A program made the translations under genes and the position numbers. This document shows, piece by piece, positions 8,263 to 13,388 of a stretch of DNA of 21,130 bases. Source of the stretch: a virus; IMG/VR virus record IMGVR_UViG_3300030099_001311, positions 1 through 21,130 of that record; one strand, given 5' to 3'. A model generated the notes under the pieces. The model saw nothing but the letters and a program-made list of their open reading frames with translations. It was not told where the DNA came from and did not search any database. Within the stretch, counting starts at the first letter, position 1, and every line of letters starts with the position of its first letter.

Positions 8263-9045
8263 ATGGTCGCTAAAAAAAATACAGTTAAAGCAATGGGGTT
8301 AAGTATTGAATCATTACAACAGACAGAGGTGTCTTTTAAAATCATAGGCACTGCACCTTTAATTTACAATTCAATGTCTTTGAAAGCACAAAAGACTTTG
8401 CTTATGGGTGCAGCGAAGAAGACTGCCGCTGAGAAAAAAGAAATCAAACATAATCCTGAAGAGGAGTTTGTAGATAGTTGTTATATCAATGGCACTAATG
8501 GTTCTTATCTTAGTTTCCCGTCCACAGGTATTAAGAGAGGCATGGCAACTGCGGCTCTTGAAACTGCTGGTGTAACAAAAGCTAGTATCAATCGTGGTAT
8601 CTATGTTGTGGGTGAACATATTAATGTGTGGGGTAAACCCTATATGAATATGTCTGTTGTTCGTTCTTCTGATATAAACAGAACACCTGATATTCGCACC
8701 CGTGCTAAATTACCTAATTGGTGTACTGAAGTTACAGTTCGTTATATTAACCCTACATTTAGTCAGCTTGACATTACGGCATTGCTCGTTAATGCAGGCA
8801 CGTTATGTGGCTTGGGTGATTGGCGAATTGAAAAGGGTGGTCCGATGGGAGGATATAGGATCGTCCAAACAAAAGATGATCAAAAGATTTTTGATCATCT
8901 AGTCAAAGAAGAAGGTGCTACTTGTCAAAAACTTGCTTTAGAAAATCCTGAGATTGAGGCACATGATAATATGAGCCACGAACTCTATGAAGCAATTACG
9001 CAAGAGAGGCTTAAAAGAGCGGCTATTATTAAGGAGGTTGCTTAA
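8263..9045 (+). CDS. Conserved phage recombination-module protein, unknown function (260 aa)
   Basis: It starts at ATG 8263 behind AAAGGAGG. Features in order are an N-terminal strand with GTAPLIYNSMS (about residues 29-39) and a basic Ala/Lys helix with KTAAEKKE. Then come EEEFVDSCY, FPSTGIKRGMATAAL (about 86-100), a middle part with SVVRSSDINRTPDIRTRAKLP, and a strongly conserved-looking end with NPTFSQLDITALLVNAG and GLGDWRIEKGGPMGGYRI (about 194-211). I recall similar proteins from phage recombination cassettes, always without an assigned role. The small-residue/KRG helix after a strand and the late glycine-rich loop recall the architecture of RAMP (Cas7-like) proteins, but this is only a pattern impression. 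It is coupled by TAATG overlap to the next gene. No nuclease or ATPase motif is visible. Confidence 0.8.
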   Translation: MVAKKNTVKAMGLSIESLQQTEVSFKIIGTAPLIYNSMSLKAQKTLLMGAAKKTAAEKKEIKHNPEEEFVDSCYINGTNGSYLSFPSTGIKRGMATAALETAGVTKASINRGIYVVGEHINVWGKPYMNMSVVRSSDINRTPDIRTRAKLPNWCTEVTVRYINPTFSQLDITALLVNAGTLCGLGDWRIEKGGPMGGYRIVQTKDDQKIFDHLVKEEGATCQKLALENPEIEAHDNMSHELYEAITQERLKRAAIIKEVA

Positions 9046-9581
9046 TGGCTAAACCTAAAAGATTTGGCAAAAGAGATCGTCAAGCAATTGTTGATGATTA
9101 TCTAAATAAAACAGGCAGGAACACTATTGTTCCTGCCGAGTTTCACGAATGGTTGTCTACACAGCCTGACCACCCAATGTATAAAGTATTAGAGTGGGAT
9201 GATGAAAAAGCTGCGATTAAATATAGAATACAGCAAATTCGTCAGTTTTTCTCAGGTTGTAGGATAACCATTAAATATAAAGATGTAACACCTGATCCTG
9301 TTGATGTAACAGATAGTATTGGTATTAGTGAACCAAAGGTGTTAAAGTTTCCTACTTACATCTCTCCTATAGATGGTAGAGCACAGGGTGGTGGTTATCA
9401 AAAGTTTGACTTGGATAACCCTGATACTGTTGCTGAGTTATGTCGTCAAGCCTGTAGAGAATTAAGATCTTGGACTAAAAGATATAAAGGTATCTGTGCT
9501 GTAAAAGAAGTAGATATAGAGAACCTTGAAGAAGTAGCAAATTCTTTGGAAGAACATAGTGTAAAGAGTGAGGCTATATAA
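9045..9581 (+). CDS. Conserved phage protein of unknown function (178 aa), last gene of the P1 operon
   Basis: ATG 9045 overlaps the upstream stop (TAATG) with AAGGAGG just before, so translation is coupled to the preceding gene. The N-terminus is basic (MAKPKRFGKRDRQAIVDDYL) and followed by GRNTIVPAEFHEWLSTQPDH. That is a helix-loop pattern typical of a small DNA-associated domain, with WLSTQPDHPMY as its most distinctive part. A middle segment (FFSGCRITIKYKDV) is beta-like, and the C-terminal half is acidic, ending with a helix-rich SLEEHSVKSEAI. No metal or catalytic site is visible. The stop codon lies in the loop of the downstream terminator hairpin, so the gene and the transcript end together. 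I recall this protein following the preceding one in other phages; the function is unknown. Confidence 0.8.
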   Translation: MAKPKRFGKRDRQAIVDDYLNKTGRNTIVPAEFHEWLSTQPDHPMYKVLEWDDEKAAIKYRIQQIRQFFSGCRITIKYKDVTPDPVDVTDSIGISEPKVLKFPTYISPIDGRAQGGGYQKFDLDNPDTVAELCRQACRELRSWTKRYKGICAVKEVDIENLEEVANSLEEHSVKSEAI

Positions 9582-9595
9582 GCCTCACTTTTTTT
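9567..9595 (+). terminator. Intrinsic terminator of the P1 operon
   Basis: A perfect 9-bp stem AGTGAGGCT (9567-9575) / AGCCTCACT (9581-9589) with loop ATATA, followed by a seven-T run (9589-9595). The upstream gene's stop codon TAA (9579-9581) sits in the loop. The pentamer array starts immediately after the T run. Confidence 0.92.
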
Positions 9596-10272
9596 AAGGC
9601 AGTTAACAAACGGCAAGTAGGGGTGAGGAACGCTCCGTTAGGTTGCGTTATGTTTTGTTCAGGCTGTTGTGTCGTGTTGAGGAGGGGTCAGATCAGTTAG
9701 GATATGTTGCGTTACGTTATGGCAGTTCAGCAGGGGTTGGGTTTTCTTGGGTCAGTTAGGATCAGTTGAGGCAGTTTGGGTGAATTAAGGTAAGCAAATG
9801 TAGTCTGAGGTTTGGTTGGCTAAGTTCTGTTGAGGCAGTTGAGTTATGGTGCTGCTCGTTTGGTTCTGTTAAGGCAGTTGAGTTTTGTTAGTCTGTGGAT
9901 GGGAGGGGTGCGTTGTGGTGCGATCCGTTTAGGCAGTTATTGTTGGGTGAGGTGAGTTACATTCAGGTCAGTTGCGTTGCGTTGTGGCAGTTGGGGTGAG
10001 GTGCGATATTCTATGTAGGGGTGCGATAAGTTCAGGCAGTTGAGTTGTGCTATCTTGGGGAGAGGTGCTGTTAGTTATGTTTAGGCTGTTTAGATGCGTT
10101 ACGTTCAGGAGAGGTGCGTTCAGGCGAGGTTTGTTGTATTGTGTTACGGCTGTTGAGGCTACCTACGTTTTTGTGTGTTTCTGTTTGCTTGGGTGAGGTG
10201 TGCTTGGTTAAGGCAGTTGCGTTCAGTTTAAGTGGGCTGTTCTTAGGTGTGTTGAGTTCGGTTAAGGCAGTT
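9596..10272 (+). repeat. Non-coding phased pentamer array, G/T-rich, punctuated by NNGG-CWGTT
   Basis: This 677-base stretch fills the whole gap between a terminator and the helicase gene and has no credible open reading frame. Counting from each CWGTT anchor, the sequence divides into pentamers without losing phase. Of about 124 pentamers, 108 end in T and 55 end in GTT (for example GCGTT, ACGTT, GAGTT, GAGGT, GGGGT). Thirteen anchors (CAGTT or CTGTT starting at 9600, 9664, 9723, 9772, 9836, 9875, 9934, 9988, 10037, 10086, 10150, 10214, 10268) are each preceded by a tetramer ending in GG. The twelve intervals are 64, 59, 49, 64, 39, 59, 54, 49, 49, 64, 64 and 54, all 5n+4. Both ends carry AAGGCAGTT. 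The + strand is poor in A and C. Function unknown; replication origin, recombination site, or a structured or protein-bound RNA are possibilities. Confidence 0.93.
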
Positions 10273-10301: not shown

Positions 10302-11981
10302 ATGCTTTTAAGACCATATCAAGAGATTGCTGTTAATTCGGCTATAGATGCTTTGGATAAGCATGGCAATACTGTTGTTGTTGCACCAACGGGTGCAGGC
10401 AAAACAATAATGCTTTCTGCTTTGATAGGTAAACGCTGCGAAACCCGAAGAAATGTTCTGGTTCTGCAGCACAGAGATGAGCTGGTTAATCAAAATATGG
10501 ATAAGTTTAAACGCATAAACCCAAATATATTGACCAGCATTGTTAATGCTGAAGAGAAAGATTGGAACGGAGATGCTGTATTTTCTATGGTGCAGACATT
10601 ATCCAGACCAAACAATTTAGATAACATGAAAGCTATGGACATGGTAGTCGTTGATGAAAGCCACCATGTGGTAGCTGATACTTACACTCGGATAATTGAT
10701 CATGCTAAACAAATTAATGACAAAGTTGAAATCGTTGGTTTCACTGCTACGCCTAATCGTGGGGATAAGAAGGGTTTGCGTTCAGTCTTTAGCAACTGCA
10801 GCCACCAAATCGAAATATCAACACTCATTCGTGAAGGTTTTCTTGTCACCCCAAGAACCTACGTCATTGACGTGGGTGTACGTTCTGAACTTGAGAATGT
10901 TCGGAAAACAGTGGTTGATTTTGATATGGATCAAGTAGCTCGTATTATGAACAAGCGAGCTATCAATCAAAGGGTTGTAAGCGAATGGTTAGATAAAGCA
11001 CATGATAGAAAGACTGTGGTGTTCTGTTCGACAGTGGCACACGCAGAAGATTTATGCGAGGAGTTTGTAGAAGAAGGTGTTAATGCAAAGATAGTTACAG
11101 GGAGCACAGACAAAGCCGAGAGACGGGAGATTTTGGAGGATTTGTCAAGTGGGGATACACAGGTTGTAGTCAACGTATCTGTACTAACAGAGGGGTTTGA
11201 CTCACCTCCTGTATCCTGTATTGTTCTAACACGACCTTGCTCTTACAAATCAACAATGGTTCAGATGATAGGTCGTGGATTACGAACCATTGATCCAGAT
11301 GAGTATCCAGATATTATCAAGACAGATTGTGTTGTACTTGACTTTGGTACATCTGTGTTAACACATGGATCACTCGAAGAAGAAGTTAATCTTGAGGGTT
11401 CACAATCAGAGTTAAAAGGTGACGCACCAGAAAAGGTTTGTCCAGAATGTAACTCTGTTGTTCCTTTAAGTGTCAGAGAGTGTCCTATGTGTGGTCACGA
11501 GTTTGGCAAAGATGATAACTCACAGCTAGAAGAGTTCTCCATGACAGAGGTAGATCTATTAGACAGATCACCTTTCCGTTGGATAGATATATTTGGTACA
11601 GGTAAATGTGTCGCAGCGACAGGGTTCAATGGCTTTGCAATGGTTATAGATTTAGATGATTTATCCTGTGGTCTTGTAAAGCGTTCTGGTGGCAGGATAA
11701 GAATGATTAGTATAGGAACACGCAAGCAGGCTATCGCATCTGCTGATGACTTTCTCAGAGAGATTGAAGATAGTGATAGTGCAAAGAAAGGTCGTAGATG
11801 GCTAAATGAACGTATTAGTGACAGACAGAGAGATATGTTAAGCCGTAATGGTGTAATGGTATCAGGGTTTGACTTCTCTTGGACAAAATACAAAGCGGCG
11901 TGTTATTTGAATTATTTGTGGAATAAGGGTAGAGTAGACGATATGATTAGTAATGTGAGGGAGAAACATGAAAAAAGATAA
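10302..11981 (+). CDS. SF2 DEAD/DEAH-box-type DNA helicase with C-terminal zinc ribbon (559 aa)
   Basis: This ATP-dependent helicase has the full superfamily 2 signature: the Q-like RPYQ at residues 4-7, Walker A APTGAGKT (28-35), and motif II DESH (118-121). FTATP (motif III) lies near residue 150, GFDSPP follows in the second RecA domain, and motif VI QMIGRGLR is at 321-328. After the helicase core comes a Cys4 zinc ribbon (C380-x2-C383 ... C394-x2-C397) and a further 160-residue C-terminal domain of unknown role (WIDIFGTGKC region). It resembles phage and bacterial SSL2/UvsW-type helicases that remodel forks and recombination intermediates. It opens a new block after the pentamer array, with its own leader. 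Its last 14 bases overlap the DUF3310 gene. A degenerate CCGAA-N4-TG-TTC palindrome lies inside at 10444-10461. Confidence 0.92.
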   Translation: MLLRPYQEIAVNSAIDALDKHGNTVVVAPTGAGKTIMLSALIGKRCETRRNVLVLQHRDELVNQNMDKFKRINPNILTSIVNAEEKDWNGDAVFSMVQTLSRPNNLDNMKAMDMVVVDESHHVVADTYTRIIDHAKQINDKVEIVGFTATPNRGDKKGLRSVFSNCSHQIEISTLIREGFLVTPRTYVIDVGVRSELENVRKTVVDFDMDQVARIMNKRAINQRVVSEWLDKAHDRKTVVFCSTVAHAEDLCEEFVEEGVNAKIVTGSTDKAERREILEDLSSGDTQVVVNVSVLTEGFDSPPVSCIVLTRPCSYKSTMVQMIGRGLRTIDPDEYPDIIKTDCVVLDFGTSVLTHGSLEEEVNLEGSQSELKGDAPEKVCPECNSVVPLSVRECPMCGHEFGKDDNSQLEEFSMTEVDLLDRSPFRWIDIFGTGKCVAATGFNGFAMVIDLDDLSCGLVKRSGGRIRMISIGTRKQAIASADDFLREIEDSDSAKKGRRWLNERISDRQRDMLSRNGVMVSGFDFSWTKYKAACYLNYLWNKGRVDDMISNVREKHEKR

Positions 11982-12491: not shown

Positions 12492-12661
12492 AGTCGATTG
12501 GCAGTTTATTTGGTAAGTTTGGTTGGAATACTAGGTTGTCTGAATTAGACGAAGAAAAGATTCTAGTTTTAATTATGCTTTGTAAAGAAGAGATAGGGGA
12601 TTTGGAATATGAGTTTAACGAAACTTATTTGGCAGACATCTGGCTCAAATACAAACAGTAA
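12443..12661 (+). CDS. Small unknown phage protein (72 aa)
   Basis: ATG 12443 follows a strong GAGGAGG site that lies inside the preceding gene, so the two genes overlap by 49 bases in different frames. The N-terminal 25 residues are Ser/Asn-rich (MEVSNNTQSGRSDNSLKSIG) and likely disordered. The rest is two acidic helices (LDEEKILVLIMLCKEEI and LEYEFNETYLADIWLKYKQ). No known domain was recognised. It overlaps the nuclease gene by 53 bases. The strong ribosome-binding site is the main evidence that it is real. Confidence 0.6.
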   Translation: MEVSNNTQSGRSDNSLKSIGSLFGKFGWNTRLSELDEEKILVLIMLCKEEIGDLEYEFNETYLADIWLKYKQ

Positions 12662-13388
12662 TGATATTAGTAAAAAAATACTAGACATTATTGATGACAG
12701 TATTCAGGAGCAGAATAAAAAGAAAGAAAAGAGAAGATATTTAGGTGCTTCATCTTTGGGCGACCCATGTTCAAGAAAAATACAGTATCGTTACATGGGT
12801 GTAGAAACTGATGTTGAAAACCAATTTAGTGCAAAGGTGTTGCGTATATTTGAGTTTGGTCATGTGATTGAAGACATGGCTCATGGTTGGTTGTACAATG
12901 CAGGATTTGATTTGAGGAGCACAGATAAGAGTGGAAAGCAATATGGTTTCTCAATAGCTGATGATAGGATAAAAGGTCATATAGATGGTGTGATATGTGG
13001 TGGGTCTGTTAATATGGCATATCCTGCATTATGGGAATGTAAATCAGCAAATGATAAAAGTTTTAATGAATTTGTTCGGAAAGGGGTTAGCGAGGTAAAC
13101 CCCGTATATGCAGCTCAAATAGCTCTGTACCAAGCATACATGGATTTAAACAATCCTGCTTTGTTTACAGTGGTTAATAAAAATACTTGTGAAATATATT
13201 TTGAGTTAGTTCCGTTCAATAAAATGTTGGCACAGCAAATAAGCGACAAGGCAGTAGACATTTTAAAAGCTGTGGAACATAATGAAATATTGCCACGCAT
13301 AGCAGTAAATTCGGATTACTTTGCGTGTAAAAGATGCGAGTTTAGAAAAAGATGTTGGGAGTTAGGAAATGAGAGTATTACCATTTAA
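12609..13388 (+). CDS. Cas4-like PD-(D/E)XK exonuclease with four-cysteine (Fe-S type) signature (259 aa)
   Basis: A RecB/Cas4-type nuclease. After an N-terminal Lys/Glu-rich helix comes GASSLGDPCSRK with C54, then a helix with FGHVIEDMAHGW. The catalytic core is IKGHIDGVI (motif II aspartate) and WECKSAN (E-x-K, motif III), and the C-terminus reads CKRCEFRKRC. The spacing C54 ... C240-x2-C243-x5-C249 is the four-cysteine pattern that binds a 4Fe-4S cluster in Cas4 and AddB-type nucleases. It likely degrades or resects DNA ends, producing single-stranded tails for the recombination proteins encoded upstream. It starts at ATG 12609 behind AGGGGATTTGG. The stop overlaps the primase gene by 20 bases. 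Nothing CRISPR-related was seen nearby, so this is a phage replication/recombination nuclease rather than an adaptation gene. Confidence 0.85.
   Translation: MSLTKLIWQTSGSNTNSNDISKKILDIIDDSIQEQNKKKEKRRYLGASSLGDPCSRKIQYRYMGVETDVENQFSAKVLRIFEFGHVIEDMAHGWLYNAGFDLRSTDKSGKQYGFSIADDRIKGHIDGVICGGSVNMAYPALWECKSANDKSFNEFVRKGVSEVNPVYAAQIALYQAYMDLNNPALFTVVNKNTCEIYFELVPFNKMLAQQISDKAVDILKAVEHNEILPRIAVNSDYFACKRCEFRKRCWELGNESITI

Follow-up and report, generated by a model that had tools for sequence, protein, structure and literature searches.

The closest described system to the locus reported here is VIPR (Viral Interference Programmable Repeat), a CRISPR-like phage system presented in 2026 (bioRxiv 2026.04.26.720920, PMC13142463). 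As set out in that study, its parts are a RAMP protein, an accessory vap gene and RNAs made of GGY/NN pentamers, on which Vipr assembles; each NN pair reads two DNA bases, after which one base, usually the codon wobble, is skipped (PMC13142463). Guides hold 9-16 repeats each, the Vipr protein combines an RRM core with a glycine-rich loop, and the system studied is that of phage SUSP1. Seven types are distinguished, among which type II (SUSP1/P. fulva) has an invariant structured 3' tail. The published system acts on competing phages, satellites and prophages, and the main text names no restriction-gene targets (PMC13142463).

We analysed a window of 21,130 nt (the whole stretch of DNA considered here, IMG/VR record IMGVR_UViG_3300030099_001311), which comes from a marine phage genome and shows no DNA similarity to cultured phages. 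It shares with VIPR a phage RAMP protein, a putative accessory gene, an intergenic pentamer repeat with two variable bases and the wobble skip, and we consider it almost certain that the locus belongs to VIPR. The differences lie in the scaffold, NN-G-(G/T)-T, a related but more relaxed consensus than strict GGY; in the layout, twelve abutting modules with GGC[AT]GTT boundaries; and in the targets identified here, which are restriction/defence enzymes. Counted between its DNA boundaries, each module of the window holds 7-12 NN pairs, beside the 9-16 repeats published per guide. The modules abut with only GGC[AT]GTT between them and no structured tail was seen, and the locus is therefore not filed as type II. 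The main features of the locus are as follows.

8263..9045, + strand: vipr-like gene (protein A), a 260-aa RAMP with a C-terminal glycine-rich loop, CGLGDWRIEKGGPMGGYRIV
9045..9581, + strand: accessory gene (protein B; vap position), 178 aa, PHROG 15946, unknown function
9563..9593, + strand: stem-loop and T run, likely terminator of the accessory gene (fold z -5.1)
9598..10272, + strand: putative VIPR guide (vrRNA) array; 13 GGC[AT]GTT motifs enclose 12 modules built from NN-G-x-T pentamers

A second comparison is offered by Class 1 CRISPR-Cas systems (Cas7/Csm3), which have in common with this locus the RAMP fold, an array of guide units and, by analogy, possibly an RNA-bound filament that flips out bases at regular intervals. 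The window differs from them in lacking direct repeats with spacers, in that no adaptation genes were seen beside the array, in its step, which is a pentamer and not 6 nt, and in its noncontiguous guide. Indeed, the array contains no CRISPR-type identical direct repeats with unique spacers, and no Cas1 or Cas2 was found among the ten window proteins scanned. A Cas4-like exonuclease match lies at 12609-13388; such exonucleases are common phage genes.

Period and module layout of the array

The 5-nt register of the array is real and far beyond chance. Autocorrelation gave a lag-5 identity of 0.435, where dinucleotide shuffles gave 0.299 (z 8.1), and further peaks appeared at lags 10, 15 and 20. 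When the sequence was divided into T-ending 5-mers with occasional 4-mers, the optimal division scored 87, against 59.7 +/- 2.7 in 300 shuffles whose maximum was 69 (z 10.2), and 67 pentamers carried both G3 and T5, where shuffles averaged 24 and never exceeded 36. The signal is restricted to about 9.6-10.28 kb of the window, with a best extent of 9598-10272 (675 bases). These results bear out the phased 5-nt register proposed in a first-pass annotation of this DNA, as well as its proposal that the region is non-coding, since neither strand holds a stop-free frame of more than 70 codons. Its mixture of about 124 pentamers and 12 tetramers with T at position 5 was correct as a phased-T bias, but its hand counts (T in 108 of 124 pentamers, 55 ending in GTT) were not reproduced exactly: such counts depend on the parse, and our T-only parse yields 127 pentamers, 98 of them ending in T, and 10 tetramers.

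A rigid modulo-5 table of base composition, the check that the annotation had suggested with shuffled controls, is flat (chi2 3.8, df 12), since a single tetramer in every module shifts the register; it is the tetramer-tolerant segmentation that is significant. The tetramers are not scattered, one being found at each GGC[AT]GTT motif. Thirteen such motifs, from 9598 to 10266, delimit 12 modules, and a fourteenth match, at 10235, lies inside module 12 and is merged into it, which yields the final spacing of 54. The boundary spacings (64, 59, 49, 64, 39, 59, 54, 49, 49, 64, 64 and 54) are all of the form 5n+4 (12/12), and each module therefore contains one tetramer. The array pentamer reads NN-G-x-T, with G or T at position 4. 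The modules, with the amino-acid readings obtained from some of their NN pairs, are listed below.

9598..9661, + strand: module 1, guide AA AC AA GG GA AC CC AG GC AT TT CA
9662..9720, + strand: module 2, guide GT GT GA GG CA CA AG AT GC AC AT; decodes VV(D/E)G(H/Q)(H/Q)R(I/M)AT(I/M), the GmrSD/DGQQR motif
9721..9769, + strand: module 3, guide CA GG TG TT TG CA AG CA GA; decodes (H/Q)G(C/W)(F/L)(C/W)(H/Q)(R/S)(H/Q)(D/E)
9770..9833, + strand: module 4
9834..9872, + strand: module 5, a short guide of 7 NN
9873..9931, + strand: module 6, guide GA TT AG GT TG GG GC GT GC CC TA; decodes (D/E)(F/L)(R/S)V(C/W)GAVAPY
9932..9985, + strand: module 7; decodes I(C/W)(D/E)(D/E)T(H/Q)(H/Q)AAV
9986..10034, + strand: module 8, the commonest module in relatives
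10035..10083, + strand: module 9, guide GA GT AT GG GA GC TA AT TA; decodes (D/E)V(I/M)G(D/E)AY(I/M)Y
10084..10147, + strand: module 10
10148..10211, + strand: module 11
10212..10265, + strand: module 12, with the internal GGCTGTT in pentamer phase
10266..10272, + strand: terminal GGCAGTT

An Rfam search of the array returned nothing above chance.

Neighbouring genes and relatives

Protein A has no Pfam match and falls in PHROG 4652, of unknown function. Its AlphaFold model (pLDDT 77, pTM 0.72) found Cas7-type RAMPs as top PDB matches, namely Csm3, Cmr subunits and Cas7-11 (Foldseek E 1.5e-5, VIA Z about 10), and a viral match is annotated 'Cas system-associated RAMP'. Protein A is also homologous to the 196-aa gene of SUSP1 (28474-29061; hhalign E 8.7e-16), which itself adjoins visible NN-GGT/GGC pentamer repeats. 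It is hence a RAMP-family Vipr, with an RRM core and a glycine-rich loop. Protein B differs from the SUSP1 counterpart: a profile comparison with the 147-aa SUSP1 accessory gene, the one VIPR accessory family compared, found them unrelated. Its homologues accompany vipr and the array in many contigs. The surrounding genes are those of replication and recombination, with an AAA_24 ATPase, a Holliday-junction-resolvase-like protein and a helicase.

Helicase-based and gene-based scans of IMG/VR gave about 100 related loci. The array is common to about two dozen close relatives and is absent from the more distant helicase relatives examined. The pentamer phase survives in the close relatives, as the annotation had asked of homologous loci. 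Among the 598 module spacings measured across 67 arrays, 508 have the form 5n+4; the consensus over 209 distinct modules is N N G(0.88) G/T(0.87) T(0.86). A pattern scan further recovered homologues of proteins A and B together with an NNGNT array bounded by GGCAGT[TC] in unrelated phage contigs (L099, L100, L109, L121, L125, L141, L145 and others).

Module order is kept between phages, with only 6 inversions in 773 shared-pair comparisons. This count rejects a shuffling of modules between phages and implies that phages acquire or lose modules, or exchange one for another at the same position. Among homologous modules, variation was 0.14 at N1, 0.12 at N2, 0.12 at G3, 0.18 at position 4 and 0.05 at T5; the NN positions thus vary no faster than the scaffold, and within one guide lineage they are conserved and not hypervariable.

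Several variants of this layout were seen. Long arrays of like design with GGCAGTT/GGCAGTC boundaries occur in the unrelated phages L099 (8415-9360), L105 (3590-4050), L110 and L119, and L105 and L110 have the accessory gene ahead of the array, not behind it. In the relatives L005, L006, L004, L007, L012, L015, L016 and L026, a gene of about 174-187 codons is inserted between array and helicase; it exists in two versions at one site and looks by eye like an MT-A70-type adenine methyltransferase (ADPPW motif). In another subclade, seen in L022 (4760-5000), L017, L023, L024, L027, L028 and L029, downstream of the array come a hairpin, a TTGACA-type promoter-like site and, before the helicase, a conserved leader, GCGTC...GGGAAGTACGTAGGACGC...CTTCCCAC, a region without any Rfam match.

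Decoding of the guides with a one-base skip

The reading rule is that NN pairs, with one base skipped after each, correspond to codon positions 1 and 2. Under this rule module 3 reads HGCFWHRHE, the Vsr signature. Searched in genome_contigs as an 18-base gapped pattern with a 1-nt skip, it gave at least 120 exact matches, compared with about 7 expected (an estimate). Of 80 matches examined, 73 lay within vsr, at the HGCFWH motif and in frame, and Pfam Vsr was found in three of the matched genomes, one of them a SAR116 genome. Module 9 reads D-V-I-G-D/E-A-Y-I-Y, which before the search we presumed to be the HsdM motif. Its two exact matches in 240 alphaproteobacterial genomes were both hsdM (EDVIGEAY(M/I)YLIE), and the reversed control pattern had none in the same genomes.

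Both guides were also scored on independent sets of 29 vsr loci and 30 N6_Mtase loci, collected by Pfam and not by guide. For module 3 the best site was the Vsr motif in 29/29 vsr loci, as judged by reading the listed sites, and the mean match was 0.885 at skip 1 but 0.676 at skip 0, 0.653 at skip 2 and 0.663 at skip 3; shuffled guides reached 0.675. For module 9 the N6_Mtase loci scored 0.726 at skip 1, against 0.654-0.672 at the other skips (z 4.7 over shuffled guides). Read by eye, its best sites fell on the HsdM D-x-x-G-x-x-(Y/F)-E motif in about 20/30 loci, and a narrower motif pattern counted 7/30. Module 3 scored on the vsr set alone and module 9 on the N6_Mtase set alone. This confirms that the 1-nt skip rule holds in the window's lineage: the code is computationally shown for modules 3 and 9, and modules 2 and 6 are consistent with it. 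The one-base-skip code is hence confirmed independently, from genome data alone, in a lineage with a looser scaffold.

The base that a guide passes over in its identified targets is the wobble base of a codon, and the guide therefore follows a conserved protein motif irrespective of synonymous codon changes. The wobble skip shows why such a code would be favoured, since the guide targets a protein motif and not a single DNA sequence. It follows too that the annotation was right that the period is kept, but wrong in taking the period to be all that is kept, as two variable bases per pentamer carry guide information.

The first 16 bases of module 2 had 22 matches in IMG/VR, which read the motif and lie mostly in long in-frame ORFs. 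As about 20 matches are expected by chance, the count alone is not evidence; what supports the target is frame, motif and full match. Indeed, 22/22 bases match a GmrSD restriction gene in viral contig L171, for which the best PADLOC name is HEC-06. In 120 Pseudomonadota genomes no match to module 2 was found within 2 mismatches.

Module 6 led us to suspect DUF4338, a family named DruA (Druantia) in current Pfam. In three DruA regions fetched by family, its best site was CGA(I/V)PPYN (LGAVPPYN in one), matching 15-17/22 bases and only at skip 1. Further DruA-domain loci, perhaps without that part of the gene, gave no site of this type, and module 6 was found neither within 2 mismatches in the 240 alphaproteobacterial genomes nor in an exact search of viral contigs.

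The remaining guides were less informative. The reading of module 7 resembles DEAH-type helicase motif II, and its database matches look like chance, as do the single-mismatch matches of module 8. The reverse complement of module 5 reads (F/L)(R/S)(H/Q)(D/E)A(I/M)S, which resembles a motif of tyrosine integrases. The arrays of L013, L027, L029 and L147 hold a module that, read as its reverse complement, gives (I)(R)(F)(H)(D)LR(H)(E)A(I)S, similar to the HDLRHEAIS motif of those integrases; module 5 looks like this module with Leu and Arg codons exchanged for synonyms (CT to TT, CG to AG). Neither module 5 nor the longer versions in relatives had an exact database match for this reading. No target was found for any of the six guides of modules 1, 4, 8, 10, 11 and 12.

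Proposed counter-defence role and its alternatives

We consider it likely that a phage VIPR system repressing host defences uses this region as its guide-RNA array. The + strand would be transcribed into guide RNAs, one per module, and Vipr (8263-9045) would coat this RNA, each pentamer being occupied by a single subunit that holds on to the G-x-T scaffold. Judging from its fold and the published mechanism, the coat would present the two variable bases, and the NN pairs would recognise DNA as NN-x-NN-x, with one base skipped per pair. With the skip at the codon wobble, a guide could recognise its protein motif despite synonymous change, and the predicted DNA binding and silencing would amount to RNA-guided repression of host defences during infection. 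A multimeric protein reading a 5-nt register on nucleic acid, as the annotation had imagined, fits well with the Cas7-like, VIPR-family RAMP encoded next to the array.

The role in counter-defence rests on what the guides match. Vsr, hsdM, GmrSD and DruA are restriction/defence genes, and because every confidently identified target is a restriction/defence enzyme, counter-defence is the best-supported role. Argued from target identity, it is also the most likely one. An array aimed at restriction/defence genes, and not at competing phages, appears to be new here. We also lean, with less assurance, towards the view that the clade carries a multiplex, programmable VIPR counter-defence kit, in which ordered guides read codon positions 1 and 2 of motifs in Vsr, HsdM, GmrSD, DruA and perhaps DEAH-type helicase subunits. 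If so, one guide could silence many homologues, and synonymous change would offer the host no escape. VIPR has been described as a weapon between phages; guides against defence motifs would in addition make it an RNA-guided means of evading restriction that can be programmed with many guides in parallel, each guide being a concrete prediction of which defence matters to its phage.

Some observations count against this explanation. A terminator-like hairpin lies just 5' of the array and no promoter-like (sigma-70-like) site was found before it, which makes its transcription hard to account for. Six guides have no target, the motif resemblances of modules 5 and 7 gained no support from database tests, the genome searches with modules 2 and 6 were negative, and the scaffold is less strict than the published GGY.

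The VIPR array could alternatively be aimed at rival phages, prophages or mobile elements that carry homologues of vsr, hsdM, GmrSD or DruA. VIPR targets are indeed reported mainly in satellites and prophages in the published description (PMC13142463), the GmrSD gene that agrees with module 2 at every base sits in a viral contig, and module 5 could read an integrase motif. However, the exact matches of modules 3 and 9 that were seen are in cellular genome assemblies, in Pfam Vsr/HsdM genes, and in about 1.25 Mb of DNA from related phages, targets at skip 1 were not clearly in excess (an excess at skip 3 in related phage loci is probably array sequence left unmasked). We therefore regard such targeting as unlikely.

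Far less probable still is a pentamer reader other than a RAMP, such as a TRAP-like ring, or a filament annealing ssDNA, with the motif spellings as coincidences. The array does sit among replication/recombination genes, its strand is G/T-rich, and its RNA fold is less stable than shuffles (z +1.8). However, the adjoining protein is a RAMP, and the vsr and hsdM matches go far beyond chance and only at the 1-nt skip. TRAP, which the annotation had named as the nearest analogy, resembles the array in its repeat register of about 5 nt on RNA. It reads (G/U)AG triplets spaced 2-3 nt, whereas the array fixes G3 and T5, has G or T at position 4 and leaves positions 1-2 variable, and no TRAP-like protein is involved; the analogy is not supported. 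Nor was there evidence that the region serves as an origin, recombination hotspot or annealing substrate, as had also been put forward. Finally, a functionless degenerate satellite or minisatellite born of slippage, which a drifting period-5 repeat with modules gained and lost between relatives might suggest, has a negligible chance of being correct, as module order is kept (6 inversions/773), the array adjoins the same two genes in distant phages, and the guides match conserved protein motifs, the module 3 and 9 tests refuting it.

Two further observations concern the VIPR locus and its relatives. The phage's own helicase (10302-11981) has VVVDESHHV as motif II, unlike the DETHH/DEAHH of module 7 and of relatives' guides, a difference that might possibly reflect self-avoidance. 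In the GC-rich phage contig L109 (3223-4400), the array is cleaner, with about 20 modules in which NN-GGT is almost invariant, and is a good candidate for target decoding.
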